A stretch of DNA of 39,393 nt, taken from positions 1 to 39,393 of the forward strand of contig JAGXQV010000140.1 in NCBI GenBank assembly GCA_018336195.1, written 5' to 3'. Positions 10,411 to 30,456 of this stretch are shown here, piece by piece. Position 1 is the stretch's first letter. Each line of letters begins with the position of its first letter. The DNA is from Sulfuricella sp. (GTDB lineage: Bacteria > Pseudomonadota > Gammaproteobacteria > Burkholderiales > Sulfuricellaceae). The notes under the pieces are model-generated. The model saw only the letters and a program-made list of their open reading frames with translations, was not told the DNA's origin and ran no database searches. The position numbers and the translations under genes were made by a program.

Positions 10411-12725
10411 GCTGTAGCGCCTAACTCTTCGCTAGACAGCGGCAGGACATCTACTTGCTTCGTGCGTAGCCTTCCTTCAAGCCATTCCAACCCCTCACCG
10501 ATGTATCTTGGGCATTTAAGGTTCGTAAAATCCTTGCTCAAAATAATATCAAGCGAAAACGCCGCCTTGCTCCCATTTCGTAGCGCTTCGAACATCGCGA
10601 GGCCAATGGCTTCAGCCCCCTTGTTATTCACAAGGGCTTCTCGGAATTTGCAAACCAGTCCGTATCCTTCGAGCGTTTTGAAGAATTCAATATTCTCAAA
10701 AGCAAGTGCGTCCTCAAACGTACTAGGCAGGGCTTCTTCTATGTCTGTCCCGTCCTCCTTAGCAATATTGACAGGCAACTGGTAAGCAATGCGAACAGCA
10801 AAAAGCTGATCTCCAATACATTCTTTGTCTTCAGGTTTTGCCGAGAGCAGCCCGTCAACGTCTTTAATCCTAGGTGCCCACTCTTTCAGCGACGTGTTGT
10901 TCGTAGCTTGGCCGGAGGCACGTTTCGGCTGTGCGGCCACAGTTTTCCCTCCCTTGGCTTCCCCAGCATCCAAATCTGTGATAACCAGAGTCAAAAGGCC
11001 AAGTGCCTCAATCAGTGGTTTGAGACGATGGGCGTGACTCCCGTTAATCTCCAGCAATGTAATGTAGCACTGTGTTAAATAGGGGTAGCGCTCACGAATG
11101 AAATTGGGGACGAGCATTTTTTCAGCCGGCCCCTCAACTAATATTGCCGCATCTGCAAAAAACAAGTCGCTGTGCTGAGCACGCAGGTAGCGCGTTACAA
11201 ATCGCTCAGTCTCTGTTCCTTCTCCAAAAACACCTGAAAGATTAATTACTGTAGAAATTGGAATGGGCACAACCATGCCTGCGGGAAGCCGTCGAAAGTA
11301 CCTGAGACATGAAAAGCTAGTCTCGTGCGCGACATGGCTTGAATGTGTGCTGACGACAAGCTGTGTATGCAACGTAGAATTTGTATTCAGGTCGTTATGA
11401 TCACGTAGTACCTTGTAGGCCTTATTGATGAAAACTTGTTGAACCTGTGCGTGAAGATGAGCCTCTGGCTCTTCGACAAGGACGAGGTGTATCGGCTCGA
11501 TTTTTTCTTCTTTGATAGATTTCGCTGCTTTTCCCACACGCATCCAAGCATCCCGGAAACTCATTAGCCTAAAGATCATTGAAATGAGATTTTGATAACC
11601 CAGCCCGTTGTAACTTTCTGGTAGGTGTAAGAGTGGTGCCGCCCCTCCTGCATTATTTGACATCTCGATTTCGAAGGAAACAGCGGCCTCGTGGTCGAGT
11701 CCATCTACAGCCTTAAGCCGAGAAGCTATCTTCAATTTTGGGTTGGACACCCCTGGATATCCCATACTCTCGACCTCAGTGAATGCATCTTCAAAGCTGG
11801 CATGCAATCGCTGATCAAAGGCTTCTTGCGCGGCTTCGATTGCTTGCAAAGCCGTCAAATCAGCCACATCCGGGGTTTCAAAAGGATCAAGGTGTTTTGT
11901 GTAGTACGCACAGAGTTGGTCTGACAATTTCTGACTATCTCGGCCAACGTTAGATGTGCCGTCGATATCAACTCCGTCAGATTCGCCAAGACCGCGCTGA
12001 GCACTGATTTCGTTTACACGGATCAGTCCTTGCAAAGGATCGCTTTCGAGTGGCAAAGCACCCACTGCAAGCAACTGGGGAAAGGCTTGACCGTCTTTGG
12101 TGGGTGCTAACTTGGCTGGATCGAGGAGATATGCACGCATCACAAGGTGTTGTGATAGCTTGCGGCCCAGAAAATCAATCAGGCTTACAGGCCAGAGAGT
12201 CAGTTTCTTGCGGTTCCCGGCCTCACCGTCTTCGGCAAGTTTAGTAGTAGCCGCAGCGGCCTTGTGAAGGGCGCGAACATCACTGGTCGCTGTCCGATAT
12301 TCCCGATACAGCGCCTCCATGTCTTTTGGTTCCAGCCGCATTCGAACTCCGAGCATGCCGCCAGCCCAGTCGAGAGTGGGTAGCAGTCCTCTGACATGAT
12401 GAAGTTCGCTATCTTCAACCTTGAGCCATAAATCAAGTGATGGAAGCAGAGGTTCCCAATCTGCCGCAGATAGAGCCGGCACCTCTTCGTCGAGCAAGTC
12501 TTCCCACGTCTTGCCAAGGGCATTAATAGCGCGCCAATGAGACAGGGTGAAGTCCTGGGTTCTGAATCGTTTACCTTTATCCACCAAGAATTTGCGCAGC
12601 GCTAAAATTGCCGAGGTTTTTCCGCTGTTGTTTGCGCCCACAAAAAGGGTTGTTTCTTTGGATAGGTCAATGCGAACTGAGAGCAGTTTTCTGAAGTTGG
12701 ATATCTCAACGTAAGCGATATACAT
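10407..12725 (-). CDS. OLD-family ATP-dependent endonuclease (AAA ATPase + TOPRIM), Gabija GajA-like
   Basis: 772 residues with the ABC/SMC-type ATPase followed by a TOPRIM nuclease. Walker A is GANNSGKT at 30-37, an NGLGYQNLI signature-like segment precedes Walker B (LVLVEEPEAHLH), and STHSSH gives the switch histidine. The TOPRIM part shows ILVEGPAEK with Glu531 and LVITDLDAG with Asp584 and Asp586, the metal-binding residues. In OLD nucleases the ATPase controls DNA nicking or cleavage, and class 2 members are encoded beside a UvrD helicase as here. Start at 12725 is supported by AAGGA about 8 nt upstream. It is the first gene of a two-gene operon lying between two synthetase genes. Immune function is inferred from family and pairing, not shown by the sequence. 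Confidence 0.9.
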   Translation of the reverse strand: MYIAYVEISNFRKLLSVRIDLSKETTLFVGANNSGKTSAILALRKFLVDKGKRFRTQDFTLSHWRAINALGKTWEDLLDEEVPALSAADWEPLLPSLDLWLKVEDSELHHVRGLLPTLDWAGGMLGVRMRLEPKDMEALYREYRTATSDVRALHKAAAATTKLAEDGEAGNRKKLTLWPVSLIDFLGRKLSQHLVMRAYLLDPAKLAPTKDGQAFPQLLAVGALPLESDPLQGLIRVNEISAQRGLGESDGVDIDGTSNVGRDSQKLSDQLCAYYTKHLDPFETPDVADLTALQAIEAAQEAFDQRLHASFEDAFTEVESMGYPGVSNPKLKIASRLKAVDGLDHEAAVSFEIEMSNNAGGAAPLLHLPESYNGLGYQNLISMIFRLMSFRDAWMRVGKAAKSIKEEKIEPIHLVLVEEPEAHLHAQVQQVFINKAYKVLRDHNDLNTNSTLHTQLVVSTHSSHVAHETSFSCLRYFRRLPAGMVVPIPISTVINLSGVFGEGTETERFVTRYLRAQHSDLFFADAAILVEGPAEKMLVPNFIRERYPYLTQCYITLLEINGSHAHRLKPLIEALGLLTLVITDLDAGEAKGGKTVAAQPKRASGQATNNTSLKEWAPRIKDVDGLLSAKPEDKECIGDQLFAVRIAYQLPVNIAKEDGTDIEEALPSTFEDALAFENIEFFKTLEGYGLVCKFREALVNNKGAEAIGLAMFEALRNGSKAAFSLDIILSKDFTNLKCPRYIGEGLEWLEGRLRTKQVDVLPLSSEELGATA

Positions 12726-14747: not shown

Positions 14748-17700
14748 CTACCCCAAAAATCGCCCCAACGCCTCCACCAGCACCGCCACATGCGGGTCTT
14801 CCATCATGCTGTTGTGGCTGCCGGGGACCATGCGGATGTCGGCGCCTTCCGTCGCGCAATCCGCCCAGCCCAGGGTGGAGTCGTCGGGTGCGTAGCGCTG
14901 CTGTAGCGCTTCCTCTCCCTGGGCGCGGAACAGGCGGATTTTGCCGCGATATGCAGAGGCTATCGGGCTGTGGGCAAGGCGGCAGTTGGTCTTGTAGACC
15001 TCGAAAAAGCGGCTGACTTCGGTGACGCCGAAATCCGGCGGGATGATGTCGGCTTCGATGAGGCGCTGGGTGACGTAGGCCAGCAGTTCTTCACTGGTAT
15101 AGCTGCGCAGTTCGTCGAGCGGGACGGAAGGCACTTCTTCGGTGAGCAGCGCCTTGAAAAGCTCGGCGTCGTCCTGGCGGGTCAGGTGTTCCGGCAAGGC
15201 GCTCGGGGCGTAGGCATCGACCAGGGCAAGGAGCGCGACCGGGTCGCCGGCCTCTTGCAATTGGCGGGCGATTTCGAAGGCGACGATGGCGCCGCCGGAC
15301 CAGCCGAGGATTTGATAGGGGCCGTGCGGCTGGACAGTTTTCAAGGCATTGCGATAGTCCGCCGCCATCTCGCGGATGTCGGCGTAGGGTTCCTGGCCGG
15401 TCTCGAAGCCGCGTGCCTGGAAGCCGTAAACAGGCTGGTCTTCGCCCAGCGCCTGCGCCAGTTTGACGTAGCACAACACCCGCCCGCCCGCCGGGTGGAC
15501 GCAAAACAGCGGCGCCCTGCCGCCGTCTTGCGCCGGGCGCAACGCCACCAGCGGCGACCACGCGGCGGCGGGTGCATCCTGGCGCAATGCCCGCGCCAGG
15601 GCCGCGACGGTGGGATGACTGAACAGCAGGTCGAGCGGCAGTTTGCGCGCGAAGGCTTGCTGGATGCGGCTCATCAGCTTCACCGCGAGCAGGGAATGGC
15701 CGCCCAGTCCGAAGAAGTCGTCGCTCACGCCGACCGGGCGCAGGTTGAGGACTTCTTCCCAAATCTGCACCAGCGCCAGTTCGATATTGTCCCGCGCCAG
15801 CGTGCCCTTGCCGCCCGCGCCCTTGCGCACCGCATCCGGCGAGGGCAGCGCCCGGCGGTCGATCTTACCGTTGGGCAGGAGGGGAAATTCGGCGAGCGGG
15901 ATGAGGTGGGAGGGGTGCATATACTCCGGCAGTTTTTCGCGCAGATAGCGGCGCAAATCCTCGACCGGGGTCAGCGGATCGGCCAGCACCACGTAGGCGA
16001 CGATCCACGGCTCTCCCGGACGGTCTTCGCGCACCACCACCACGGCATGTTGCACTTGGGGATGCGCGGCGAGGTTGGCGGCGATTTCGTCCGGCTCGAT
16101 GCGAAAGCCGCGCACCTTGACCTGATGGTCGATGCGCCCGAGGAATTCGATTTCGCCGCTAGGCAGCCAGCGCGCCAGGTCGCCGCTCTTGTAGAGGCGC
16201 CCGAGCGGTGTGGCGATGAACTTCTCACCAGTCAGCTCGGGGCGCTTCAGGTATTCGTGCGCCAGCCCCACGCCGCCGATGTGCAGTTCACCGGGCAGGC
16301 CGACCGGCACCGGCTGCCCTGCGGCGTCGAGAATATGGACCTGGGTGTTGTCGATGGGCCGCCCGATCAAGGGTCGCCCGCTGCCGCCGTAGGCGCTGAT
16401 GGTGGCGCATACGGTGGCTTCGGTGGGGCCGTAGGCGTTGAAGAAGCGCCGCCCGGCGCACCATTTTTCGGCGATTTCCGCCGTACAGGGTTCGCCCGCG
16501 ACGATCAGCCCGGACAAGTCGGGCAGCGCCTCACAGGGCAGCACCGCCAGCAGCGACGGCGGTAGCGTGACATGAGTGATGCGCTGTTCGCGCAGCACCG
16601 CCAGCAGCGGCGCGCCGGGCAGCATTTCCTCGCGCGTGGCGAGATGCAGCGCCGCGCCGGAACACAGCGCCATGAAGATTTCGGAAACCGAGGCATCGAA
16701 GCTGAAGGAAGCAAACTGCAACACCCGGCTGCCCGGCTCGACGCCGAACAGCCGTCCCTGGGCGCGCGCCAGATTGCACAGCCCGCGGTGACGCAACACG
16801 GTGCCTTTGGGCTTGCCGGTGGAACCGGAAGTGTAGATCACGTAAGCGGCACTTTCCGGGCCGGCCTGGGACGAACTTGCGGATGCAATCTCGGCACCCA
16901 ACAGTTCCCCCGGCTCAAGCACCGCCACCGCCCCGGCGGGAATTCGGGTCGGGAACGCCGGATCGGCGATCACCAGCGCCACGCCGGAATCCTCGACCAT
17001 GTAGGCGAGCCGCTCATCCGGGTAGGCCGGATCGAGCGGCAGAAATGCGCCCCCCGCCTTCAAGACGCCGAGGACGGCGAGGAGGGTTGCCAGCGGGTCT
17101 TGCAGGCAGATCCCCACCAACACTTCCGGCCCGACTTGGCGGCTTTGGAGATGGGCGGCGATGTTCGCGGCACGCGCCAATACTTCGCGATAGGACAGGC
17201 TTGTTCCCGCGTAAACCAGGGCCGGGGCAGCAGGTGTTTTTTGCGCCTGTTCCTCGACCAGGTCGAGAATGTTGTGCCGGTCGGGATAGTCGCGTTGGGT
17301 GGCGTTCCACCCTGCCAGGGTGCGCACCAGTTCGGCGTCGGGAAGCAGGCGCAGTTCGCCGAGGGTCTGGGTGGGGTCACTGACGCCGGCACCGAGGAGG
17401 TTGAGGAAGTACCCGGCCAGCAAGGCCATGCTGTCGCGCCGGTAGAGTTCCGGGTTGTAGATGAGCCAGCCGCTCAGGCCATCGGCAGCGGCGGAGAAGG
17501 AAAAGGTAATGTCGTTGCCGAGTGCCGGCAGCGGATCGTGGATGGCGTCAAAAACCAGCGCCACGTCGAATAGCGGGCAACGGTTCGGCGTCGGCTCCCA
17601 GCCCAGATCCTTGAGCAGGTGGTCATGGGGATAACGCTGGTTGGCATAGGCGTCGAGCAGGGTCTGGCGCAGGCGCATCAGCAGTTCACGGAAGGTCAGT

Positions 17701-18074
17701 TCGGGGCCGAGCTGTTCCATGATCGCCAGCGCGTTGTTGACGCTGCCGGTCTCCGGCTTGCGCGACGGAGTGCCCACCACCACGGTGGGGCTGCCGGTAT
17801 ATTTGTGCAAACACGCCATCAGCGCCGCCAGCAGCACCGTCCCGGTGAGGAAGGCGCCCTTGGTCAACTGGGTGATCCGGCCATACAGCTCGCCTGAAAC
17901 AGCGACAGCCACCCGCTCGGTTCTGCCGCCGGGGACGTTGGGACGCGGTTCATCGAGGCGCGGCGCACAATACACCGGCCCGCCGCCCAGGCGCTGGAGC
18001 CAATAGTGCTTTTCCTCCAGCAGTTTTCTGTCGAAAATCAGGGTGTTGTTGTTTTCCTGCTTTTTTTCAGTCAT
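14748..18074 (-). CDS. NRPS, half C-A-T-TE, tyrosine-like specificity, chain-releasing
   Basis: 1108 residues from the ATG at 18074, preferred over one 45 nt upstream because CAGGA lies just before it and because it overlaps the nuclease stop as ATGACTGA. The first part resembles only the C-terminal half of a condensation domain (VVVGTPSRKPE, YPHDHLLKDL); no HHxxxDG is present. The A domain has A3 TSGSTGKPKG at 415-424. Specificity residues read by hand are D460, A461, S464, T503, I524, A526, A547, V555, C556, one change from the tyrosine code DASTVAAVC as I recall it. The T domain has Ser794 in GGHS. The thioesterase has GWSGG with Ser926 and a C-terminal GSHNSMM with the catalytic His. It adds the last, probably aromatic, residue and releases the product. 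Condensation is probably supplied in trans by the C domain ending the upstream synthetase. Confidence 0.93.
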   Translation of the reverse strand: MTEKKQENNNTLIFDRKLLEEKHYWLQRLGGGPVYCAPRLDEPRPNVPGGRTERVAVAVSGELYGRITQLTKGAFLTGTVLLAALMACLHKYTGSPTVVVGTPSRKPETGSVNNALAIMEQLGPELTFRELLMRLRQTLLDAYANQRYPHDHLLKDLGWEPTPNRCPLFDVALVFDAIHDPLPALGNDITFSFSAAADGLSGWLIYNPELYRRDSMALLAGYFLNLLGAGVSDPTQTLGELRLLPDAELVRTLAGWNATQRDYPDRHNILDLVEEQAQKTPAAPALVYAGTSLSYREVLARAANIAAHLQSRQVGPEVLVGICLQDPLATLLAVLGVLKAGGAFLPLDPAYPDERLAYMVEDSGVALVIADPAFPTRIPAGAVAVLEPGELLGAEIASASSSQAGPESAAYVIYTSGSTGKPKGTVLRHRGLCNLARAQGRLFGVEPGSRVLQFASFSFDASVSEIFMALCSGAALHLATREEMLPGAPLLAVLREQRITHVTLPPSLLAVLPCEALPDLSGLIVAGEPCTAEIAEKWCAGRRFFNAYGPTEATVCATISAYGGSGRPLIGRPIDNTQVHILDAAGQPVPVGLPGELHIGGVGLAHEYLKRPELTGEKFIATPLGRLYKSGDLARWLPSGEIEFLGRIDHQVKVRGFRIEPDEIAANLAAHPQVQHAVVVVREDRPGEPWIVAYVVLADPLTPVEDLRRYLREKLPEYMHPSHLIPLAEFPLLPNGKIDRRALPSPDAVRKGAGGKGTLARDNIELALVQIWEEVLNLRPVGVSDDFFGLGGHSLLAVKLMSRIQQAFARKLPLDLLFSHPTVAALARALRQDAPAAAWSPLVALRPAQDGGRAPLFCVHPAGGRVLCYVKLAQALGEDQPVYGFQARGFETGQEPYADIREMAADYRNALKTVQPHGPYQILGWSGGAIVAFEIARQLQEAGDPVALLALVDAYAPSALPEHLTRQDDAELFKALLTEEVPSVPLDELRSYTSEELLAYVTQRLIEADIIPPDFGVTEVSRFFEVYKTNCRLAHSPIASAYRGKIRLFRAQGEEALQQRYAPDDSTLGWADCATEGADIRMVPGSHNSMMEDPHVAVLVEALGRFLG

Positions 18075-19185
18075 CGCCGATTCCTGCTTCTTGAAGTTTC
18101 GCGGCAAGGAAACGCTCAATCTCCTCGCGCTTGGGTAATTCCAACTGATATTTGGAAACGAACAGTTGATTATCCATGCCGGCCAGCGCGAATTCGGCCA
18201 GCGAATGTTTCTTGTGCGTACACAGCAGGATGCCGATGGGCGGGTTATCGCTTTCCTGCATCACGTGTTTCTTGTACCAACTTACGTAGGTATTGAGTTG
18301 GCCGATGTTTTCATGGCTGAACTCGGCCAGTTTCAACTCCACCAGCACATGGCATTTCAGAATGCGGTGGTAGAAAACCAGGTCGATGAAGTAGTGCTCG
18401 TCGCCGATCAAAATCCGCTTCTGCCGGGCCTCGAAACAGAAGCCGTGCCCCATTTCCAGGAGGAACTGCTGAAGATTATCGAGGATCGCGTCTTCCAGGT
18501 CCGACTCGTACATCACTTCCTGGGGTTTCAGGCCCAGGAATTCGAAGATGTAGGGGTCGCGGATATTCAAGGCCGTCGCGGATTGCTCGGCATGGTCGTG
18601 CACATGAGCGGCCAAGGCATTTTTGTCGGTTGATAGGCCGCTACGCTCGTAATACAAACTGGCAATCTGGCGCTTCAACTCCCGCACCGACCAGTTGCCG
18701 AGCAGGCATTCGATCTCGTAAAAGCGCCGCTTGAGATCGTCGTCCGTATCCACCAGCAGTTCCAGTTGGCTATATGAAAGCTGTGACACCAGCCTTTCGA
18801 CAGGAACGTTTGATTGTGGGGACGCCGTACCCACTTTAGAAGCCGCATGATCCACCAGCAGCAAGCCTCGCAATTTGGGGGACAGTGTCCCCACAATTTG
18901 CGGATAGGTGCGAAAGAACCGCAGATAGCGATACAACTGGCGCTTGTTGCAGTTGCTCAGACTGGCCGCCGTCAGTTCTTGCGCCAGCTTGGCGAACAAC
19001 TCGTCACCATAATCGGCACGATTCGAACCACGCAGTTCAAACGCGTCAATGTAATAGCCGATCATCCAATTGCGCAGCGTGAGGCTCAGATTGACCGCAC
19101 GTGAAGCCTGAGCACGCAGTTCCTGATGAACGTCGACAATCGAGCGGACGACATCCATGAATTCGAAGCGCGCTGCATCACTCAT
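18067..19185 (-). CDS. DUF1016 / PDDEXK nuclease family protein (YhcG-like) inside the NRPS operon
   Basis: 372 residues. The N-terminal half matches the DUF1016 helical domain (LSLTLRNWMIGYYID, then KRQLYRYLRFFRTYP). The C-terminal half is a PDDEXK-type nuclease with Asp268 in FIDLVFYH and Glu283-x-Lys285 in LVELKLAEF. Family members are found near restriction-modification and mobile-element genes and are thought to act on DNA. Here the gene lies 33 nt after the radical SAM gene and its stop overlaps the ATG of the next NRPS gene by 8 nt (18067-18074), so its translation is coupled to the synthetase. No methylase or specificity gene is nearby. A biosynthetic role is not evident; it may be a passenger that became fixed in the operon. 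Confidence 0.88.
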   Translation of the reverse strand: MSDAARFEFMDVVRSIVDVHQELRAQASRAVNLSLTLRNWMIGYYIDAFELRGSNRADYGDELFAKLAQELTAASLSNCNKRQLYRYLRFFRTYPQIVGTLSPKLRGLLLVDHAASKVGTASPQSNVPVERLVSQLSYSQLELLVDTDDDLKRRFYEIECLLGNWSVRELKRQIASLYYERSGLSTDKNALAAHVHDHAEQSATALNIRDPYIFEFLGLKPQEVMYESDLEDAILDNLQQFLLEMGHGFCFEARQKRILIGDEHYFIDLVFYHRILKCHVLVELKLAEFSHENIGQLNTYVSWYKKHVMQESDNPPIGILLCTHKKHSLAEFALAGMDNQLFVSKYQLELPKREEIERFLAAKLQEAGIGDD

Positions 19186-19218: not shown

Positions 19219-20931
19219 TCAAAACTGGAACTCCTCGCTCTCGTCCTCGCTGCGTTGCCGGGAGATTTCTTCCTGCGCGGCATCCGTGGACTGGGGATTG
19301 TACAGCGGCGCATTTTCTCCCGCGGCGGGAAGGTCTGCTTCGTGCTGAATTTTCCCCCAGCGCTGGAGGTTTTCGACGAGTTGCGGTGTGGGTTCGCGGG
19401 CGTCTGGAAACAGCAGTTTCTCGCGGATCGCATCGTTGAAGGCGCGGACGAACCCCTTGATCTGAGCGAGGGAAAAACCCTTGCGCTGCAGGTAGAAAAC
19501 GCTCCACAACTCGAATCCCTGTTGCGGTAGCCAGATGGCGTTGCGCACGGTGAGGAACATCTGCTCGACGTATTGCGAGGCGGTGCGGAAATCCATGGTG
19601 TTGTGGCGCCAGTTGAAGGCGAAATCGCGAATGCCGAATTCCTCGCGCTTCTGCCAGATCGGGGTGATCGGGTCGCAATACCACAACTGGGCGCGGAAGA
19701 AATCGGGGCGCGCTTCTTCGATCAGCGAGACGGTCTCCGCAACGGTCTCCGCAGTCTCTCCGGGAAACCCCACCAGCAGGTTGGCGTGGGTGACGATGCC
19801 GTTGTCGCGGAAGTGGCGGATCGCCTCCAGATAGTTTTTCCGCCGCGAGGTCTTGTTCATCGCTGCCAGCATGACGTCGCTGCCCGACTCGATGCCCAGG
19901 AACACCCCTTCGCAGCCGGCCTCGGCCATCAGGCGGATGGTTTCCGCGTCGCCGTGGTCGGAGCGATAGAACGAGTTCCAGCGGAAGCCGTAGCGCTTGT
20001 CTATCATCAGCCGCAGGATGTCGCGGAAGCGTTTTTTCGGCACGTTGAAGGTGTCGTCGAGGAAGGTCACCGTCGTCACGGTGCCGATGGCGCGGATCGC
20101 GTCCAACTCTTTTTCGACATGGGCCAGGTCAAGATACCTGTACTTGCCGGCACGCTCGGAAAAACCGCAAAAAGCGCAGGCGAAGGGGCAGGATTTGGCG
20201 GTGCGGATCGACAGGAATTCGCCGATCTCCGCCGTGGGGAACAGCGTGTAATCGACCGGGTTGTCTTCCAGGGGATTTTCCTCCAGCGCTCGCTCATTCA
20301 GGACGAAATCCGCGCCATCGCGGTAGGCGACGTTGCGCACCCCGGAAAAATCCCCACCCTCACGCAATGCCTGGAGAACGGCCACCAGGGCGGCTTCACC
20401 CTCGGCGCCGATGACGTAATAGTCACCCTCCAGATAGGCGAACAACTGGCGCAGCGATTCGTCGTCGAGCATCGCGGCCTGGCTGGCGATGTACGGCCCG
20501 CCGATGATGATTTTTACGTCTGGGTTGCATTCCCGGACGAACGCGACAATTTCGATGATCGGCTGGGGCGACACGTACAGCGTGGTAGTGATGGCGACGC
20601 TGCGGACGTCCCCCGCCGCCAGCTTGGCGCGCAGCTTGTCCTTTTCCAGGTGGAACAGGTTGACGTAGTCGAAACTGAATCCGTGGCGCGCCAAATAGCT
20701 GCCCAGGTAGAGGATCACCGGCCACAGGAAATCGGCATTGTGGTAAGGCGTCGCCAAGCTGCCGTTGACTTCGTTGAGGATGTCCATGGCGCGGCGTTCC
20801 TTGCCGTCGCGCGTAATGAAGGCAAGGTTAAGGTCGCGGTAGGCCCCTGAACTGGGATCGTTGCCGCGAATGGCCGTCACGGTTTTCCCGAAATCGTAGT
20901 CGTTGAAGCCGATAAGGAGGCAATCCGTCAT
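19219..20931 (-). CDS. B12-binding radical SAM protein, PhpK-like, NRPS-associated
   Basis: 570 residues. The N-terminal part (MTDCLLIGFNDYDFG, SSGAYRDLNLAF) and the following alpha/beta region with IIIGGPYIASQ and GAEGEAALV look like a cobalamin-binding domain. The radical SAM domain follows with the cluster motif C248-x3-C252-x2-C255 and LLVGFPGET further on. This order is normal for B12-dependent radical SAM methyltransferases, which methylate unactivated carbon or phosphinate phosphorus. The opening resembles, from memory, the PhpK group, but a P-methylation role would need phosphonate genes and none are seen. It lies between two synthetase genes and probably modifies the peptide or a tethered residue. 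The C-terminus ends SEEFQF, nearly matching the tail of the upstream NRPS (AEEFNF). Confidence 0.85.
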   Translation of the reverse strand: MTDCLLIGFNDYDFGKTVTAIRGNDPSSGAYRDLNLAFITRDGKERRAMDILNEVNGSLATPYHNADFLWPVILYLGSYLARHGFSFDYVNLFHLEKDKLRAKLAAGDVRSVAITTTLYVSPQPIIEIVAFVRECNPDVKIIIGGPYIASQAAMLDDESLRQLFAYLEGDYYVIGAEGEAALVAVLQALREGGDFSGVRNVAYRDGADFVLNERALEENPLEDNPVDYTLFPTAEIGEFLSIRTAKSCPFACAFCGFSERAGKYRYLDLAHVEKELDAIRAIGTVTTVTFLDDTFNVPKKRFRDILRLMIDKRYGFRWNSFYRSDHGDAETIRLMAEAGCEGVFLGIESGSDVMLAAMNKTSRRKNYLEAIRHFRDNGIVTHANLLVGFPGETAETVAETVSLIEEARPDFFRAQLWYCDPITPIWQKREEFGIRDFAFNWRHNTMDFRTASQYVEQMFLTVRNAIWLPQQGFELWSVFYLQRKGFSLAQIKGFVRAFNDAIREKLLFPDAREPTPQLVENLQRWGKIQHEADLPAAGENAPLYNPQSTDAAQEEISRQRSEDESEEFQF

Positions 20932-21000: not shown

Positions 21001-24000
21001 CTAAAAATTGAATTCCTCGGCTTCGTCGAGCGCCGGTGTTTCGCCACCCGCGACCAGGGAAATATCGACCACCTTGGCGTCGGGATGGGCGGCGGCGCTT
21101 TCCAGAATCTCCCCGAAATGCCCCACCATCGCGGCGACCTCATCCGCGTTGAACAGCCCGGCGTCGTATTCGAAAACCCCGTGGAGAATACCGTCCGCTT
21201 CCGACATGGAAAGGATCAGGTCGAATTTCGCCGCGCCGCCGGGGGTGGGCAGCAGCGTCATGGCGATTCCCTCGTCCAGCGGGACATCGGCTGCCGGGGC
21301 ATTTTGCAGGGCAAACACCACCTGCACCAGCGGTGTGCGGCTCTCGCCCCGCTCGGGGCATACTTCCCGGACGATCTGCTCGAAGGGGACATCCTGGTGA
21401 GTGAACGCTTCCAGCGCCGTTTTCCGCACTCGTTTCAGCAGGTCGCGATAACTCGGCTCGCCCGCCAAGTCCACCCGCATCGGCAGGGTGTTCACGAAAA
21501 AGCCGATCAGCGGCTCGATTTCCTGGTAATGGCGGTTGGCGATGGGCGAACCGACCAGGATGTCCTCGCGCCCGGTATAGCGGAACAGCAGCGTGGCATA
21601 CGCCGCCAATAGCGCCATGTAGAGGCTCACCCCTTCGTGCAGGCAGAGTTTCTTGATTTTCCCGGTGAGCGTCCGGGTCAGGGCGAAGGAGGCCGTGCGG
21701 CACGGCGCGGCGCCCAGCGGGGCGTTGCGGCGGGACACCTGAAGTAGCGGCGGAACCCCGGCCAACTGCTTGCGCCAGTAATCGAGGCGGGCTTCCAGCG
21801 CCGCGCCGCTCAGCCAGTGGCGCTGCCAGCAGGCGAAATCCTGGTACTGCACCGCCAGTTCGGGGAGCGGCGCGCCGGTTTGCTGCCGGTGAAAAGCCTG
21901 GTAGAACTGGGTCAGTTCATGGATGAACACCCCGGATGACCAGTTGTCGGCAACGATGTGATGCATCGCCAGCAGCAGGATATACCCGCCCTTGCCCGCC
22001 CCATCGACGGGCAGCTTGAGGAGGGTGCCCTTGAGCAGCGGGCCGTTTTCCAGGTCGAAGGGCGTCACCGCCTCACTAGATATCCGCCGCTCGACTTCGG
22101 CGTTTTGTTGGTCAGGCGGATAGGCGCCGATATCCACCAGCGGCAGCGGCGCCTCCTTGTAAGAGGCAATCACCGCCACCGGTTGGCCGCCTTCTTCATG
22201 AAAAGTGGTGCGCAGCACGTCATGGCGGCGCACGATTTCCGCGATACTGCGGCGCAGCGCATCTTCGTCGAGTTCTCCGTCGATGCGGATGGCTGCCGCC
22301 ATGTTGTAATTGGCGCTGTTACCTTGCAGGCGATCAAGGAACCACAGTCTTTCCTGGGCGAAGGACAGCGGATATTCGCTGCGGCGCGGCACGCGCAGAA
22401 TGGGCGGAACCTGCAAGCCCCCCTGCCTGGCGCAACCCTCGATGTGGCGGGCAAGCCCCTGGATGGTCGGCGTGTCGAAGATTTGCCGCACCGGGATATC
22501 CAGGGCAAACGCCTCGCGGATCCGCGAAATCAATTGAGTGGCGAGCAGCGAGTGGCCGCCCAGCTCGAAGAAATTGTCGTGGCTGCCGATGGCGTCGATT
22601 TTCAGCACCTCGCCCCAGATGGCGGCCAGCACTTCTTCGACGGGGGTTGCGGTGAGCGGGGAAACCGCAGCCTCGCGTTTTTCGTCGCCGCCGGGATGGG
22701 GCAGGCGGCGCCGGTCCACCTTGCCGCTGGAGGTGACGGGCAGTTGTTCCAGCGCCACGAACGCGGACGGAACCATGTATTCGGGGAGCTTGGCTTTCAC
22801 GTAGTCGCGCAGCGCGGCGCAGTCGATCTCCTGCCCCGCCGATGCCACCACGTAAGCGGCGAGACGGCGGTCGCCGGGGCCGTATTCGACATCCACCACC
22901 ACCGCTTCGCCGACCTCGGGATGGGCATTCAGCAGCGCTTCAATCTCGCCCGGCTCGATGCGGAAGCCGCGGATTTTCACCTGGGTGTCGGCCCGCCCGA
23001 GAAACTTGAGGTTGCCGTCCGGCTCCCACAGAGCCAGGTCGCCGGTCTTGTACAGGCGCTGCCCGTCCCCGCCGAACGGATTGGCGACGAAGCGCTCCGC
23101 GGTCAGCGCTTCCTGGCCCAGATAGCCGCGCGCCAGGGCCACCCCGCCGACGAACAGTTCGCCCGGAACGCCCGCCGGAACCGGCCTTCCCGCCGGATCG
23201 AGAAGGTAGATTTCGCTATTGGCGAGCGGCTTGCCGATGGACGGCAGCGCCGGCCAGTGCGCGGCGTCGCCTTCCAGGGTGTAGGCGGTCACCACGTGGG
23301 TCTCGGATGGCCCGTAGTGATTGTGCAGGCGGCAATTCTCCAGCCCCGCGAAAAAGCCCGCGATGGCCGGGGATATGCGCAATTGCTCGCCGGCGGTGAT
23401 GACCTCCTTCAGGCTGGCCGGGTAGCGCGAACGCTCCACCGCCACCGTGGCCAACTGCTGCAAGGCCACGTAGGGGAGGAACAGGCGCTCGATGCGCTCT
23501 CTCTCCACGTAATCGAGCAAGGCCAGCGCATCACGGCGCAACTCGCTGGAAGCGAGATGCAGCGTGCCGCCGGCACTCCAGGTCGAAAACACCTCCTGGA
23601 AGGACACGTCGAAGGTGTAGGGGGCGAACTGGAGGGTACGGGCGGGAGCCGCGAAAGCCGGCTGATCGAGATGCCAGTGGATGAGGTTGGACAGGGCATG
23701 GCGGGCCATCGCTACGCCCTTGGGCTTGCCGGTCGAGCCGGAGGTGTACAACAGATAGGCGAGGCTGTCCGCCCCGTCGTTGCGCAGCGGGTTGGATGCA
23801 GAGCGGGCGTCGATATGCTCCTGCACGAGGTCCAGGTAGACGATTTCCCGTCCCGGCGTCGTACTTTTTTTACTGCGTGGAAGGAAGGCGATGCCCTGTA
23901 TCGTTTCCAAAATCTCGTCGGAGGGAAGCGCTCCGCCGTTCTCGGCGACTTTTCCGACCAGTTCGTCGAAAGTAAGCTCGCCTTCCCGCAGCACCACCAC

Positions 24001-27000
24001 GTCGACGCTGCGGTTCGCCAGGATCGTCGCGAATTCGCTGCTCGCGTAAGGGCCGCCGGTGACGATGGGAACCCCCGGCAGCCAATTCCTCAAGAGGCTC
24101 ACCGTTTCATGGAAAAAATCGCGGAACCGCGACAAGGTCCGAATCCCGACCAGTTGCGGCCGGCATTCCCCGAGCAACGCCTGGAGTTCGGCGAAGGATG
24201 CGAAGTCGATCCGCGATTTGGCAACCTGGGTGGCAACCCGGCTCCCCTGCGTCTGTTTCAGATAGGCCGCCAGACACATCAGCCCCAGCGGCGGCTCGAC
24301 CATGTCGTATTGCATGCCCTCGGCGGCGTCGGCGAACAGCAGGGAAAGGTCGAGCAGCAGGATGCGGAAGGGGTTTTCCAGCGGCGCGTCCGGTCGCACG
24401 GCGCGCGGCGCAACGTAAGTCCGGTCGAAGTCGGGGGCGGCCATCGGGTCCCCGGTCACCGGCCGCGCCCCGCCCAAATCCTCGGGAGTCAGCCCGGCGG
24501 CATCGAGCAGGTCGGCAAGGCTGGCGATCTTCATCGGCAGATAGCTGTCGTATTTGAGGATCAGCTCGTCTTCCGTCATCAGCTTCATCTGCGACGGCAG
24601 CACCTGTTTGAGGCGCTCGCGATCCATGAAATAGTCGCTCATGAAGCGCGACTGGAACTCCCGCGCGAAGCCCTTGGAAAACGGCAGGGTATCGGGAAGC
24701 TCGTGGTAGGCGAGATTGGTGGAACGGCGGATCGCCTCGCGGGTAATCCCTTGCTCCAGCGCCATCGCCTCCATCTCGGTGTCCGGGTAGATTTTCAGGA
24801 TGTGCAGATTGGGGAAATGCAGCCAATGAAAGTTCTTCACGAAATCGAGGGTGGCGTAGGCTTCTTCCTCGGTTTCGGTGGGGAAGCCCGTCATGATCTG
24901 CATTTCGAGGATCAGGTCGGGATAGGTTTCGGTGATGTAGGAAACGCTCTCCCCAAAGCGGTCCAGGCGCAGATTCTTCTTGATTAGCCTCTGGATGCGC
25001 GGCGAGGCCGATTCCAGGGCGACCGCGAGGTTGACCGTTCCCGCTTCCACCAGCAAGTCGATGTAGTCCTTGGAAAGAATGTCGCCGCGCAGGCCGTTGG
25101 GAAAGAACAACTGGATACCCAGTTTCGCATCGATGATCTTGCGCAACAAGCGGCTGGAGCTTTCCTGGTCCAGGTTGAACACGTCGTCGACCACCACGAA
25201 ACGCCGCGCGCCGGCCGCGTAACAGCGGGAGATTTCGGCGAAGATGTTCTCGGCGCTGCGAAAGCGCGTCTTCCGCGACATGATCTTGTGGCAATACAGG
25301 CACCCGTAGGGACAGCCGCGCGACGCCTCGATGGAGAAGGTGTGGCGGACCGGGGCGATGCCGATATGTTGGTGATATTTCGCGTAGGAAACCGCGGCGC
25401 GGTCGGGGTGGGGCAGATCGTCGTAATTCGCCACCATCGGACGCGGCGTGGTGATGACCGGCTCAACCGCCCGATGCTGCTGCAACAGGGTAAAAGGAAT
25501 GTCCCGGCACACCCGCTGCTCGGTCAGCAGCAGCGCGGTGCCGCTGTCCTCCAGCATCGCCAGGATTCTTTCCTGCGGATACTCGGGGTCGATGGGCAGA
25601 TAGCCGCCGCCCGCTTTCAATATCGCCAGCAAGGCCACCGGCAGCGCTTCGCTGCGCGCCATCATCAAGCCCACCACGGAATCCGGCCCGACGCCCTTTT
25701 CCCGCAGATAACCGGCCAGACGGTTGGCGCGGGCGTTGAGTTCAGCGTAACTCAGGGTGTTCCCTTCGAACGTCAGGGCAGGGGCGTCGGGCAGGGCGAC
25801 AGCCCGTTCCTCGAACAGCGCTTCCACCGGAATCCGGTAGGAATACTCCCTGGGCAGGCGGCTCCACTCCTTCATGATCCGCGCCGGCTCGCCATCCGCC
25901 ACCAGCGGATAGGCGCCGACCTCGCAGTGGGGATTTGCCGCGATGCCTTCCAGGAGGAATTGGAAATGCGCCAGCAAGCCTTGCGCAACGGCAGGTTCGA
26001 AAAGGTCTTCGGAATATTCGAGAATCCCCAGATAGCCGTCGTCGCGTTCCAGTAAATACATGACCAGGTCGAAGTGGGAGACGCCGCTGTCCACCGAGAC
26101 CGTCTCGATGGCCAGCGCCTGGTCGTCGCTGGTCCGGCTGAGCGGGGCGTTCTGCACCACCAACATCACCTGGAACAGCGGGGCGTGGCTGAGATTGCGC
26201 TCAGGCGCCAATTCCTTGACCAGTTTTTCGAAGGGCAAATCCTGATGGGTATAGGCTTCCAGGGCGCGCGCCTTGACCCGTTCCAGCAAGGTTTGGAAAG
26301 TCGGGTTACCCGCCAGGTCGATGCGAAACGCCAGGGTGTTCACGAAAAAACCGATCAGCGGTTCCAGTTCGCGGCGCCCCCGGTTGGCGATGGGCGAGCC
26401 GATCACCAGATCGTCGCCCCCGCCGTAGCGGGAAAGCAGCAGGCCGAAGGCCGCCAGCAGGGTCATGAAGGAGGTCGCTGCGGCGCTCTGGGCGATCTTC
26501 TCCAGCCCTTTCCTAGCGGTTGCGCCGACCTGGAAAGTGGCGAGTTTCCCCCGGTAGGTCTGCTCCGCCGGACGCGGTTTGCGGCAGGGCAACTCCAGAA
26601 CCGGTGGGGCGCCCTCCAGCAGCTTGCGCCAGTAGGCCATCTGGCTTTCCAGAAGCGTTCCGTCGGAGAAACGGTCGCGCTGCCATGCCGCGAAATCGGC
26701 GTACTGGACCGGCAACGCCGCCAGCGGCGAGGGCTTGCCGTGCGCGAAAGCGTCGTAAAGTGCGGTCACTTCGCCGGCGATGACACCGGTGGACCAGCCG
26801 TCGGAAACGATGTGGTGCATGGTGACCAGCAGGATATGTTCTTCCTGCAGGTCCGCTCCACGCGCCAGACGCAGCAGGCGCCAGCGCAGCAGCGGCCCGG
26901 TGGCCAGATCGAAAGCTTCCTGGACATAGGCAACGGCAATCCGGTTCACCTCGATGGATTCTTCATCGCCCCCCGAAAATGGCGGCAAATCGGTGACGCT

Positions 27001-27378
27001 GAGCGGCAGGAACAGGCGCTCGGCAATCCGCTGAAATGGCTGGCCGTTCTCCGCGAAAAAGCTGGTGCGCAATACCTCGTGGCGGCGGATGATCTCGTTG
27101 AGCGCCGCTTCCAGCGCGCCGACGTTCAATGGGCCGCGCAGCCGATAAGCGGCGGGAATGTTGTATACCGCGGCGGCGACCTGGCTTTCCAGTTCGTGTA
27201 GGAACCACAGGCGCTCCTGGGCGAAGGAAAGCGGAAGCGGCGCACTTCTCGGCACCAGCGGAATGGATGATTCCCCGCCCTCCCCTTGGCTTTTTCTCTC
27301 CTCCAGGTGTTTTTCCCGGAGTTTTTTCAGGAGCAGTTCGCGTTTTTCCGGGGATAACCCCTTCAGCCTTTCCTGCAT
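21001..27378 (-). CDS. NRPS C-A(interrupted by radical SAM + B12-binding cassette)-T-C, proline-type
   Basis: 2125 residues. The first C domain has HHIVSDG at 188-194. The A domain starts normally, with A2 (LKAGGGYLPIDPEYP) from 587. Then about 540 foreign residues intervene, and A3 resumes at 1211 (YTSGSTGKPKG). Downstream, NHYGPSETHVV (1353-1363), YKTGDL, the A8 loop and a TSSGKVDRR lysine motif are intact, so the A domain should fold. Specificity residues D1257, V1258, Q1261, F1300, I1327, A1329, H1354, V1362, V1363 read DVQFIAHVV, the published proline code. The T-domain serine is Ser1610 in GGHS. The second C domain has HHIVADN (1806-1812, last Gly changed to Asn) and no T domain follows it, so it should join this residue to one on a separate protein. 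The protein ends AEEFNF. It likely activates proline, and the inserted cassette probably modifies it. Confidence 0.94.
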   Translation of the reverse strand: MQERLKGLSPEKRELLLKKLREKHLEERKSQGEGGESSIPLVPRSAPLPLSFAQERLWFLHELESQVAAAVYNIPAAYRLRGPLNVGALEAALNEIIRRHEVLRTSFFAENGQPFQRIAERLFLPLSVTDLPPFSGGDEESIEVNRIAVAYVQEAFDLATGPLLRWRLLRLARGADLQEEHILLVTMHHIVSDGWSTGVIAGEVTALYDAFAHGKPSPLAALPVQYADFAAWQRDRFSDGTLLESQMAYWRKLLEGAPPVLELPCRKPRPAEQTYRGKLATFQVGATARKGLEKIAQSAAATSFMTLLAAFGLLLSRYGGGDDLVIGSPIANRGRRELEPLIGFFVNTLAFRIDLAGNPTFQTLLERVKARALEAYTHQDLPFEKLVKELAPERNLSHAPLFQVMLVVQNAPLSRTSDDQALAIETVSVDSGVSHFDLVMYLLERDDGYLGILEYSEDLFEPAVAQGLLAHFQFLLEGIAANPHCEVGAYPLVADGEPARIMKEWSRLPREYSYRIPVEALFEERAVALPDAPALTFEGNTLSYAELNARANRLAGYLREKGVGPDSVVGLMMARSEALPVALLAILKAGGGYLPIDPEYPQERILAMLEDSGTALLLTEQRVCRDIPFTLLQQHRAVEPVITTPRPMVANYDDLPHPDRAAVSYAKYHQHIGIAPVRHTFSIEASRGCPYGCLYCHKIMSRKTRFRSAENIFAEISRCYAAGARRFVVVDDVFNLDQESSSRLLRKIIDAKLGIQLFFPNGLRGDILSKDYIDLLVEAGTVNLAVALESASPRIQRLIKKNLRLDRFGESVSYITETYPDLILEMQIMTGFPTETEEEAYATLDFVKNFHWLHFPNLHILKIYPDTEMEAMALEQGITREAIRRSTNLAYHELPDTLPFSKGFAREFQSRFMSDYFMDRERLKQVLPSQMKLMTEDELILKYDSYLPMKIASLADLLDAAGLTPEDLGGARPVTGDPMAAPDFDRTYVAPRAVRPDAPLENPFRILLLDLSLLFADAAEGMQYDMVEPPLGLMCLAAYLKQTQGSRVATQVAKSRIDFASFAELQALLGECRPQLVGIRTLSRFRDFFHETVSLLRNWLPGVPIVTGGPYASSEFATILANRSVDVVVLREGELTFDELVGKVAENGGALPSDEILETIQGIAFLPRSKKSTTPGREIVYLDLVQEHIDARSASNPLRNDGADSLAYLLYTSGSTGKPKGVAMARHALSNLIHWHLDQPAFAAPARTLQFAPYTFDVSFQEVFSTWSAGGTLHLASSELRRDALALLDYVERERIERLFLPYVALQQLATVAVERSRYPASLKEVITAGEQLRISPAIAGFFAGLENCRLHNHYGPSETHVVTAYTLEGDAAHWPALPSIGKPLANSEIYLLDPAGRPVPAGVPGELFVGGVALARGYLGQEALTAERFVANPFGGDGQRLYKTGDLALWEPDGNLKFLGRADTQVKIRGFRIEPGEIEALLNAHPEVGEAVVVDVEYGPGDRRLAAYVVASAGQEIDCAALRDYVKAKLPEYMVPSAFVALEQLPVTSSGKVDRRRLPHPGGDEKREAAVSPLTATPVEEVLAAIWGEVLKIDAIGSHDNFFELGGHSLLATQLISRIREAFALDIPVRQIFDTPTIQGLARHIEGCARQGGLQVPPILRVPRRSEYPLSFAQERLWFLDRLQGNSANYNMAAAIRIDGELDEDALRRSIAEIVRRHDVLRTTFHEEGGQPVAVIASYKEAPLPLVDIGAYPPDQQNAEVERRISSEAVTPFDLENGPLLKGTLLKLPVDGAGKGGYILLLAMHHIVADNWSSGVFIHELTQFYQAFHRQQTGAPLPELAVQYQDFACWQRHWLSGAALEARLDYWRKQLAGVPPLLQVSRRNAPLGAAPCRTASFALTRTLTGKIKKLCLHEGVSLYMALLAAYATLLFRYTGREDILVGSPIANRHYQEIEPLIGFFVNTLPMRVDLAGEPSYRDLLKRVRKTALEAFTHQDVPFEQIVREVCPERGESRTPLVQVVFALQNAPAADVPLDEGIAMTLLPTPGGAAKFDLILSMSEADGILHGVFEYDAGLFNADEVAAMVGHFGEILESAAAHPDAKVVDISLVAGGETPALDEAEEFNF
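23851..25461 (-). other. Radical SAM + cobalamin-binding-like cassette inserted between A2 and A3 of an adenylation domain
   Basis: Residues about 640-1176 of the proline NRPS. A DLPHPDR linker, typical of what precedes the radical SAM barrel in B12-type enzymes, leads into RGCPYGCLYC with C689-x3-C693-x2-C696. A complete-looking barrel follows (FVVVDDVFNLD, FFPNGLRGD, ALESASPRIQ, TGFPTETEEEA). From about 1002 comes a Rossmann-like part with RILLLDLS, VEPPLGLMCLAAYL, VTGGPYASS and GELTFDEL, the usual look of the cobalamin-binding domain of radical SAM methyltransferases. The order, radical SAM before B12 domain, is the reverse of the usual one. A-domain sequence flanks both ends in one frame (LEDSGTALLLTEQ before, REIVYLD...DSLAYLLYTSG after). 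Role as an on-line C-methylase of proline is inference. Confidence 0.88.
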
Positions 27379-29223: not shown

Positions 29224-30456
29224 ATGCCTAAGTTTGCTGCGGAAATGTCCGCCATAGTCGTTAGTCGCCTGACCAAGCCGGGGTATCACCGTGTCGGTGG
29301 CGTTGCCGGTCTGATCTTGCAGGTTGCCGAAACCGGCGCGAGGAGTTGGATTCTGTGGGCGACCGTGGGCGGGAAGCGCCGGGAAATCGGCCTAGGTGGT
29401 TATCCTACGGTGACGCTTGCAGGTGCGAAGGAAGCGGCACGTATTGCTCGTGCCAAGATTAAGGAAGGCATTGACCCGGTAGAGGATGCCCGAGCAAGAC
29501 GCAGTGAGCTTGCCGCCGCCCGTGCCGCCGCCATGCCATTTCGAGAAGCCGCCGCCGCATACATCGCCGCGCATGAATCAGGATGGAAGAACGCCAAACA
29601 CGCGGCACAGTGGGGCGCAACGCTCGAAACCTACGCCTATCCCACCCTGGGAAATATCGCTGTTGCCGACATCGAGACGGCACACGTTGTGCGGGTGCTG
29701 GAACCTATCTGGACGACGAAAACAGAGACGGCAAGCCGACTGCGCGGACGTATCGAGTCGATTCTGGGCTGGGCAACGGTGCGCGGCTACCGCAAGGGCG
29801 ACAACCCGGCGCAATGGCGTGGTCACTTGGACACACTGCTACCCGCCAGAAACAAAGTCCAGAAAGTTGAGCATCACGCGGCCATGAATATGGATGCGCT
29901 TCCCGGATTCATGCTCGCATTGCGCCAGCAGGCTGGGACGGGCGCGCGCTGCCTTGAGTTCGCCATTCTGACGGCGGCACGATCTGGAGAAGCTCGCGGT
30001 GCGACTTGGGCAGAAATCGACTTGGATGCCGCCGTCTGGGTGATCCCAGCTTCGCGCATGAAGGCGGCGAAGGAACACAGGGTGCCGCTATCCGATTCCG
30101 CATTGGAATTGCTCCGAAACCTGCCGCGAATGGCCGGGACTGACCTTGTTTTCCCGAACACAAAAAACGCGCCCCTCAGTGATATGACGTTAACCGCTGT
30201 CCTGCGCCGCATGGCCGTTGACGTAACCGCGCATGGCTTCCGCTCGACGTTCAGGGATTGGGCCGGGGAAACGACGGCATACCCGCGTGAGGTCATCGAA
30301 CACGCGCTGGCGCACCAACTTAAAGACAAGGCGGAAGCGGCTTATGCGCGTGGCTCCCTATTCAACAAGCGGCGCAGACTCATGGCGGATTGGGCGAAGC
30401 ACTGCACCACTGTGGGGACTGTGGCGACCGTGACCCCGATAAGGAAGTCAGCATGA
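29224..30456 (+). CDS. int: P4-type tyrosine integrase of the integrative element
   Basis: 410 residues with the usual three parts: an N-terminal arm-binding DUF4102-like domain (GARSWILWATVGGKRREIGLG), a helical core-binding domain, and the catalytic domain. Catalytic residues are Arg253 (TAARSGEARG), His337 and Arg340 (AHGFRSTFRDW), His364 (LAHQ) and the nucleophile Tyr374 (EAAYARG). It should integrate and excise the element, probably at a tRNA 3' end. The start follows four 12-bp repeats. The stop overlaps the next gene as ATGA. Confidence 0.93.
   Translation: MPKFAAEMSAIVVSRLTKPGYHRVGGVAGLILQVAETGARSWILWATVGGKRREIGLGGYPTVTLAGAKEAARIARAKIKEGIDPVEDARARRSELAAARAAAMPFREAAAAYIAAHESGWKNAKHAAQWGATLETYAYPTLGNIAVADIETAHVVRVLEPIWTTKTETASRLRGRIESILGWATVRGYRKGDNPAQWRGHLDTLLPARNKVQKVEHHAAMNMDALPGFMLALRQQAGTGARCLEFAILTAARSGEARGATWAEIDLDAAVWVIPASRMKAAKEHRVPLSDSALELLRNLPRMAGTDLVFPNTKNAPLSDMTLTAVLRRMAVDVTAHGFRSTFRDWAGETTAYPREVIEHALAHQLKDKAEAAYARGSLFNKRRRLMADWAKHCTTVGTVATVTPIRKSA

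Follow-up and report, generated by a model that had tools for sequence, protein, structure and literature searches.

The window analysed here, a stretch of 39,393 nucleotides from Sulfuricella sp., encodes an NRPS subunit in which a radical SAM/B12 unit of circularly permuted order is nested between motifs A2 and A3 of the adenylation (A) domain. The unit most likely C-methylates the carrier-bound residue in cis, and we estimate at roughly 0.55 the probability that it methylates the residue, predicted to be proline here, which its own module would load. The sequences establish that the unit is inserted and permuted and that both features recur, and the proteins concerned represent interrupted A domains of a new sort, with radical SAM/B12 as the nested enzyme.

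The subunit (2125 aa; 21001..27378, minus strand, as are all features below) has the organization C-A(interrupted)-T-C and is encoded by a single uninterrupted frame with no stop, in which Pfam identified two Condensation domains, AMP-binding as two stretches, Radical_SAM, B12-binding, AMP-binding_C and PP-binding. The first condensation domain (aa 48-500; 25879..27237; Pfam and the motif HHIVSDG at aa 188) is followed by the N-terminal piece of the A domain with A1-A2 (aa 515-639, start approximate; 25462..25836), assigned by Pfam, an A1-2 profile and structure. Next comes the inserted unit of 536 residues (aa 640-1175; 23854..25461), which the first-pass annotation had placed correctly to within one codon (23851-25461). 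It comprises a radical SAM core (PF04055; aa 684-847; 24838..25329; 58.8 bits, cut-off 29.5) with the [4Fe-4S] motif CxxxCxxC in the form CPYGCLYC (aa 689-696; 25291..25314) and, after the core, a B12-binding domain (PF02310; aa 1027-1141; 23956..24300; 38.9 bits, cut-off 32.1). The C-terminal piece of the A domain with A3-A10 (aa 1176-1560; 22699..23853), the carrier (T) domain (aa 1583-1646; 22441..22632; Pfam PP-binding) and a second condensation domain (about aa 1670-2110, boundaries approximate; 21049..22371; HHIVADN at aa 1806) complete the chain. Motifs A3, A4, A5, A7, A8 and A10 and the T-domain serine motif were all found downstream of the insert; hence, A1-A2 precede and A3-A10 follow a second enzyme within one chain, and the frame, Pfam and motifs together confirm the earlier reading of a radical SAM/B12 unit inside the A domain at A2-A3.

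The pairing of the A-domain halves had initially been left to structure prediction. In the AlphaFold2 model, a normal, complete A domain closes around the insert (pLDDT 90.3); 473 of the 481 residues of 4d4i could be aligned with it (rmsd 1.8), and its top structural matches also include 8p5o, the core of proline-activating GrsB1. Both the A domain and the insert are predicted to fold intact. A fold search with the insert alone gave MgmA, TsrM, CysS, AprD4 and OxsB as near folds, AprD4 being the closest solved structure; the B12/radical SAM enzymes listed align only within model residues 6-340, and therefore the B12 half was barely probed structurally.

In class B radical SAM enzymes, the B12 domain usually lies N-terminal to the radical SAM core. 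The insert possesses the parts of such an enzyme, a radical SAM core with CxxxCxxC and a predicted B12-binding domain, in reversed order, whereas the usual order is seen in the relatives L107 and L108 and in the product of the neighbouring gene (19219-20931). BLAST aligned the insert in two reordered pieces both with L107 (E 1.5e-60 and 1.2e-20) and with L108 (E 4.9e-47 and 2.4e-21), over nearly the full length at 30-35% identity; against a canonical-order relative, insert residues 366-534 correspond to residues 5-167, and insert residues 2-308 to residues 167-488. The B12 half matches positions 18-155 of the BchE model, and the radical SAM half begins at position 159 of the same model. Judged from these alignments, the inserted unit is a circular permutation with the break at the B12/radical SAM linker; the first-pass annotation had read the order of the two domains as it stands and overlooked the permutation. 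The canonical class B families BchE, PhpK, MgmA, TsrM and CysS share with the insert the same two domains and the radical SAM fold match, but differ from it in domain order. The permutation is a clean example of a two-domain enzyme re-cut and placed within another enzyme.

Relatives had been suspected in databases, and many were found. Counting the window's own, 347 units were collected from 338 listed proteins. Of these units, 222 (in 215 proteins) are flanked by A1-A2 and A3+, and 100 lack both flanks and are either stand-alone or from partial records; the permuted order is shared throughout. In every one of the 347, a B12 domain comes after the radical SAM core, and only the second copy of the tandem P0241 has a further B12 domain ahead of the core. 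The distance from CxxxCxxC to A3 is 511-577 residues (median 522; 195 of the 222 nested units, in which the A3 pattern was found). Strict patterns for A3, A5, A7, A8, A10 and T were matched singly in 134 to 161 of 174 nested modules and all together in 62, a shortfall that may reflect degeneration in some relatives or overly stringent patterns. The nested architecture is present in records named for Clostridium tagluense (P0281) and Paenibacillus tepidiphilus (P0326), which makes the system testable. Where names are given in the databases, those listed mostly read "amino acid adenylation domain-containing protein", "AMP-binding protein" or "radical SAM superfamily enzyme YgiQ", which makes the nested enzyme easy to miss.

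Stand-alone permuted homologues of about 550 aa have the same order as the window's insert, but are not nested; they are collinear with it, mostly at 95-100% coverage (e.g., Roseivivax P0213, 98%, and [Clostridium] polysaccharolyticum P0203, 95%), and no characterised member was found among them. One protein labelled stand-alone, P0149, carries a condensation domain, and some such tips may be partial records. After removal of 5 units with a short radical SAM part from a set of 248, the tree placed 33 of its 97 un-nested tips beside the outgroup rather than in the nested clade, with weak supports (0.38 to 0.92); P0201, which has A1-A2 and a carrier domain, likewise lies outside that clade. This placement is only suggestive of the stand-alone form having evolved first.

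Genome searches returned few matches. Among 299 genomes of the window's phylum, three matched at 1e-40, namely the window's own and two with canonical-order proteins, and no matches were obtained in sets of 396 (1e-60), 398 (1e-50), 277 (1e-50) and 14 (1e-50) genomes; in the four larger searches 3 to 5 candidates were scored per genome, and such empty results carry no weight in the absence of a positive control. A search of 61 kin genomes at 1e-30 matched the window itself only, while five of eight genomes reached through loci matched at 1e-20, by similarity irrespective of domain order. At least 80 less similar loci, with best segments at 23-39% identity, came from a contig scan. The plasmid search at 1e-30 found a single match, partial and covering 46% of the query, and the phage search at 1e-15 found none. 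A 16S gene was looked for in the genome and not found.

The proposed C-methylation would proceed as follows. The A domain would adenylate the amino acid and load it onto the T domain; the [4Fe-4S] cluster would cleave SAM to a 5'-deoxyadenosyl radical, which would abstract hydrogen at an unactivated carbon of the residue on the carrier; the methyl group would come from methylcobalamin in the B12 domain, and the downstream C domain would accept the modified residue. Among the best 25 of 28 NCBIfam matches to the radical SAM half, none reached its cut-off, nor did any of the six matches to the B12 half; among the former, ApyD and AprD4 score best, and B12 methyltransferase families occur, each of them well short of its cut-off, as does the PhpK family (TIGR04479; 68.7 bits, curated cut-off 600 bits). 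In the available text of PMC12707348, the B12 radical SAM enzymes described in RiPP pathways are mostly methyltransferases, and this majority, together with the NCBIfam matches and the near folds MgmA, TsrM and CysS, argues for kinship with methylases. Related inserts occur with different pockets (see below), so the target is probably a carbon common to many non-aromatic residues, either C-alpha or a side-chain sp3 carbon.

A minority possibility, on the whole unlikely, is that the active unit carries out a different radical reaction on the residue or peptide bound to the carrier, such as epimerisation, desaturation, dehydration, ring change or formation of a C-C link. The preponderance of methyltransferases in RiPP pathways speaks against it, as does the B12 domain, retained in every unit, whereas AprD4, a dehydratase, works without cobalamin; OxsB is a ring-contracting enzyme. 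As BipD couples aryl rings (available text of PMC12707348), B12/radical SAM kinship, these three enzymes included, is no proof of methyl transfer.

The pockets of the host A domains bear on the substrate. The nine-residue code of the window's A domain, DVQFIAHVV, corresponds by code tables to a proline-like pocket. Activation of proline, as proposed in the first-pass annotation, agrees with this code and with the 8p5o match; the insert is not tied to proline, however, since the A domains that host its relatives have a variety of other pockets (Thr-, Ile-, Leu-, Gln/Glu- and Asn/Asp-like). In a first set of 126 codes, 52 were DVQF[IV]AHVV; in a second set of 85, centred on P0049, Thr-, Ile-, Leu-, Gln/Glu-, Asn/Asp-like and unassigned codes prevailed and only four were Pro-like, and proline was rejected as the family-defining substrate. 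Among the A domains of the fetched proteins, Gly-, Cys- or Tyr-like pockets occurred in none of the 208 interrupted but in 9 of the 47 uninterrupted ones (p 1.3e-7), with classes resting on code patterns that left 17 and 19 domains, respectively, unassigned; the hosts of inserts thus appear non-random in pocket class. Mapped on the insert tree, pocket class required 18 changes over 123 tips (7 of the 130 nested tips being without a code), compared with a mean of 46.8 and a minimum of 42 in 300 shuffles, which supports in-cis coupling. At 75% insert identity or above, 1 of 37 pairs differed in pocket class, so the link may reflect plain co-inheritance; at 65-70% identity 172 of 352 pairs differed, a variety that fits badly with one specific side-chain reaction.

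It is improbable, though conceivable, that the active unit has a different target, the upstream peptide or a residue of another module, and uses the A domain merely as a docking site. Un-nested forms do occur (the 100 units above, some being partial records), and in the second list 37 of 96 un-nested proteins have one of two C-terminal tails (33 LEDE-type, 4 FxF-type), both of which also end NRPS-length proteins (2 and 47, respectively, of 120), against 6 of 240 at a control position. The tail patterns were picked after inspection of the tails. Tails common to un-nested and NRPS-length proteins suggest action in trans on assembly lines. However, 222 of the 347 units lie in cis, and pocket class tracks the insert tree. 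A catalytically dead insert, serving as a spacer or as a cofactor-sensing gate for adenylation, is very improbable: the model A domain folds normally around the insert, and nothing more direct favours this role, whereas CxxxCxxC is kept in 341 of 347 units, its cysteines (C50, C54 and C57) are invariant in alignments A1 (17 sequences) and A3 (58 sequences), and the B12 domain exceeds the Pfam cut-off in P0001, P0281 and P0326. Five of the six motif-less units begin at protein residue 1 or 2 and are therefore cut short. Finally, misassembly joining separate genes, which had been raised initially as an objection, or gene decay can be dismissed despite an assembly contamination estimate of 7% and the lack of matches at 1e-30 in the other 60 kin genomes searched, because the same arrangement recurs in 215 of the 338 listed proteins, two of them under species names, P0009 on an 87 kb contig is 82% identical across the whole insert, and the 2125 codons contain no stop and intact motifs.

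The C-methylation reading sets the insert apart from known interrupted A domains, for which N- and S-methylation, oxidation, reduction and Asn dehydration or isomerisation are described in the available parts of PMC8949500 and PMC7966384. TioN and MarQ (a2-a3) and TioS (a8-a9) are likewise A domains interrupted by a methyltransferase, and TioN adenylates Cys before its S-methylation (PMC8949500); their inserts are ordinary SAM methyltransferases acting on N or S, whereas the window's is a permuted radical SAM/B12 unit predicted to act on carbon. Oxidases, monooxygenases and reductases are also nested within single chains, e.g., in IndC, whose oxidase is flavin-dependent and located at a8-a9 rather than A2-A3 (PMC8949500). 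The AMDH domain of the CysH and AlbIV A domains resembles the insert in having numerous homologues inside A domains; it is linked to Asn chemistry (dehydration or isomerisation), and the available text, where radical SAM is named solely in references, does not describe it as a radical SAM enzyme; its reported hosts are all of the Asn type (PMC7966384), in contrast to the many pocket types of the present family. Radical SAM has no occurrence in the available text of the interrupted A-domain review PMC8949500, and literature searches, within the text accessible to them, gave no precedent for an A domain interrupted by radical SAM, in line with the initial statement that no characterised radical SAM/B12 insertion at A2-A3 was known.

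A radical enzyme at A2-A3 would let the assembly line functionalise an unactivated carbon in cis, on the just-loaded residue. More tentatively, the family may constitute a large, unnamed class of NRPS modules with a built-in permuted B12/radical SAM methylase that would C-methylate residues, perhaps at C-alpha, as they are loaded; permutation could have made the enzyme's insertion into the A2-A3 loop possible, and the unit could be a portable C-methylation cassette for many A-domain specificities. Coexistence with many pocket types makes the insert a candidate engineering part.

The neighbouring gene (19219..20931, minus strand) encodes a stand-alone B12/radical SAM protein of the PhpK family in canonical order (TIGR04479; 687.6 bits, cut-off 600). 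A phosphonate link through this neighbour found no support: a single PEP-mutase-superfamily match was obtained in the genome, on a different contig (C210), and the superfamily also matches 9 of 14 control genomes. The next NRPS subunit (14748..18074, minus strand; ATG 18074 preferred over TTG 18119) consists of the C-terminal lobe of a C domain, A, T and TE. The C-terminal tails of the PhpK-family neighbour (EEFQF) and of the interrupted NRPS subunit (EEFNF) are alike.

The NRPS subunit is encoded by an open minus-strand frame (21001-27378) of 2125 residues without a single stop. Pfam recognizes two condensation (C) domains, an AMP-binding domain split into two stretches, the C-terminal subdomain of the adenylation (A) domain and a carrier domain, together with a radical SAM core (residues 684-847) and a B12-binding domain (residues 1027-1141). 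Motifs A1-A2 lie upstream of the radical SAM/B12 unit and motifs A3-A10 downstream; the carrier serine motif and the condensation motif HHIVSDG are present, and the second C domain has HHIVADN. The insert occupies residues 640-1175 (23854-25461, minus strand), where the first-pass annotation had located it.

The insert is circularly permuted. It opens with the linker that, in ordinary B12/radical SAM proteins, joins the B12 domain and the radical SAM core, and the B12 domain stands at its end. On the NCBIfam BchE model its B12 half spans positions 18-155 and its radical SAM half begins at 159, which demonstrates the permutation. Two relatives with the canonical order, L107 and L108, from genomes of the same phylum as the window, align accordingly in swapped pieces: insert residues 366-534 match residues 5-167 of L108 (33.9% identity) and 2-308 match 167-488 (30.5%), while 365-505 match residues 6-145 of L107 (31.0%) and 2-334 match 169-502 (34.6%). 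The same swap, weaker, is seen against the stand-alone B12/radical SAM protein at 19219-20931. A relative of 1122 residues, P0241, carries two permuted units in tandem, the kind of arrangement from which circular permutation could arise.

Relatives were collected by three queries: the insert region (7994 candidates scored, of which 674 were NRPS-length proteins at E <= 1e-3), the insert alone (319 shorter proteins, many of those listed being partial records) and the Ruminiclostridium relative P0049 (569 proteins); the best 120 of each were taken. Among the matches listed, purpose-built profiles found 347 units in 338 distinct proteins, 222 of them, in 215 proteins, nested between A1-A2 and A3 onwards, so that the relatives suspected at first reading do exist in databases. 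A further 100 listed units had neither A1-A2 nor A3 onwards, 18 had A1-A2 with no A3 found, six had A3 without A1-A2, and one was a second tandem copy; because the lists take in the highest-scoring members of the family, these shares are not unbiased. The source names include Candidatus Aminicenantes, Acidobacteriota, Deferrimicrobium, Omnitrophota, Ruminiclostridium, Lutisporaceae and Bacteroidales. Two relatives are named to species, P0281 of Clostridium tagluense (longest contig 5.0 Mb) and P0326 of Paenibacillus tepidiphilus (0.42 Mb); in both, Pfam finds condensation, two-stretch AMP-binding, radical SAM, B12-binding and carrier domains. The CxxxCxxC motif is present in 341 of the 347 listed units; five of the other six start at record residue 1 or 2, and the last, within the long protein P0305, has no such motif. 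Of the nested units, 174 are followed by at least 850 residues; in these, simple patterns matched A3 (157), A5 (148), A7 (161), A8 (138), A10 (134) and T (147), all six together in 62.

When 243 units were placed in a FastTree tree, L107 and L108 serving as outgroup, one clade took in all 130 nested units and 64 of the 97 un-nested tips; outside it are 33 un-nested tips and P0201, which has A1-A2, with weak supports of deep nodes (0.38 to 0.92). Some proteins (P0127, P0143; about 725 residues) keep the A1-A2 half and lack the remainder of the A domain after the B12 domain; this looks like release from the nested state. Short C-terminal tails can serve docking. Among the matches listed, an acidic LEDE-like tail was found in 33 and an FxF tail in 4 of the 96 un-nested proteins of the second list, and in 2 and 47, respectively, of 120 NRPS-length proteins; 60 residues upstream, as a control, either pattern occurred in 6 of 240. 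The tail patterns suggest docking to assembly lines.

Read in GrsA numbering, the pocket of the window protein has the nine-residue code DVQFIAHVV, presumably proline-like by the code tables. With class patterns drawn up after the codes had been seen, and limited to the first eight columns because the ninth was out of register in some of the large alignment, 208 interrupted A domains were classified as Pro-like (76), Thr (28), Gln/Glu (18), Ile (15), Asn/Asp (10), DAHFQAHV-type (10), VMNFGII-type (10), Leu (9), Val (7), IWETAD-type (7), Ser (1) and no class (17), and 47 A domains without an insert from the proteins fetched as Pro-like (5), Val (5), Thr (4), Tyr (4), Cys (3), Gly (2), Leu (2), IWETAD (2), Gln/Glu (1) and no class (19). 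Under these patterns Gly, Cys and Tyr pockets made up none of the 208 interrupted but 9 of the 47 uninterrupted domains (Fisher p 1.3e-7). The codes DVMNFGIIN, DAHFQAHVV and DIWELTADD, none of them assigned to an amino acid, recur in interrupted domains of several relatives, and a DIWELTADD-type code (DIWEMTADI) also occurs in the PKS-NRPS of the window. On the insert tree, coarser pocket classes changed 18 times over 123 tips; 300 shuffles gave 46.8 changes on average. With codes without class left out, the class differed in 172 of 352 insert pairs of 65-70% identity and in 1 of 37 pairs of at least 75%. Partial exchange inside the A core, given as a known evolutionary mode in PMC8097286, fits inserts staying while the pocket changes.

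Judging by its pocket, the A domain would activate and load proline. The nested unit, by its kinship and by nested methyltransferases such as TioN, would use SAM, an iron-sulfur cluster and methylcobalamin to add a methyl group to a carbon of that residue, and the downstream C domain would then use the methylated residue. The weakest step of this scheme is methylation as against other radical chemistry. One study reportedly deals with putting a methyltransferase into an A domain (PMC6670151). Among the matches listed by full-text literature searches, in a collection holding few of the subscription papers, none was recognisable as describing an A domain with a radical SAM domain nested in it. 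An account of interrupted A domains names nested methyltransferase, monooxygenase, oxidase and reductase enzymes, with the TioN and MarQ inserts at a2-a3, and makes no mention of radical SAM (PMC8949500); CysH and AlbIV have a nested AMDH domain (PMC7966384), and a review of interrupted A domains is among the references of PMC9259500. In PMC4811929 a radical SAM gene is found only downstream of an NRPS cluster. The B12 radical SAM enzymes of PMC12707348 and PMC7277169 are stand-alone.

The nested unit occurs once in the genome (4.77 Mb, 211 contigs, with estimates of 99.5% completeness and 7% contamination) and had no match at 1e-30 in the other 60 kin searched; therefore acquisition is probable, or another organism may be the source of the contig. 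A tyrosine integrase with an arm-binding domain (29224-30456, plus strand), close to the NRPS region, may mark a mobile island. The stand-alone protein at 19219-20931 (minus strand) scores 687.6 bits as a member of the PhpK P-methyltransferase family, above the cut-off of 600; it directly follows the NRPS gene, and its tail EEFQF resembles the EEFNF of the NRPS subunit. No phosphonate genes were recognised among the window genes scanned.

The next NRPS subunit (14748-18074, minus strand) has at its start no more of a condensation domain than the C-terminal lobe, from 'YWL..L' on, as do P0087, P0105, P0281 and P0326; the subunit preceding it in the window ends with a complete C domain. Among the matches listed, the radical SAM part begins at residue 380-440 in 130 of the 222 nested units, which fits such short starts. 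Between the NRPS genes, on the same strand and in DNA of lower G+C, lies a YhcG-type PDDEXK nuclease (18067-19185, minus strand; PADLOC candidate PDC-S02), the end of which shares 8 bases with the next NRPS gene as read from its preferred ATG. A Gabija-type defence pair (8491-12725), GajA (10407-12725, 923 bits) and GajB (8491-10410, 840 bits), is located on the same minus strand between the NRPS genes and the PKS-NRPS gene, with G+C of about 0.50 versus about 0.65. The PKS-NRPS protein (1-8316, minus strand) has KS and DH domains; its residues 558-666, between the two, match the first third of an acyltransferase domain only (PF00698 positions 1-114 of 319).
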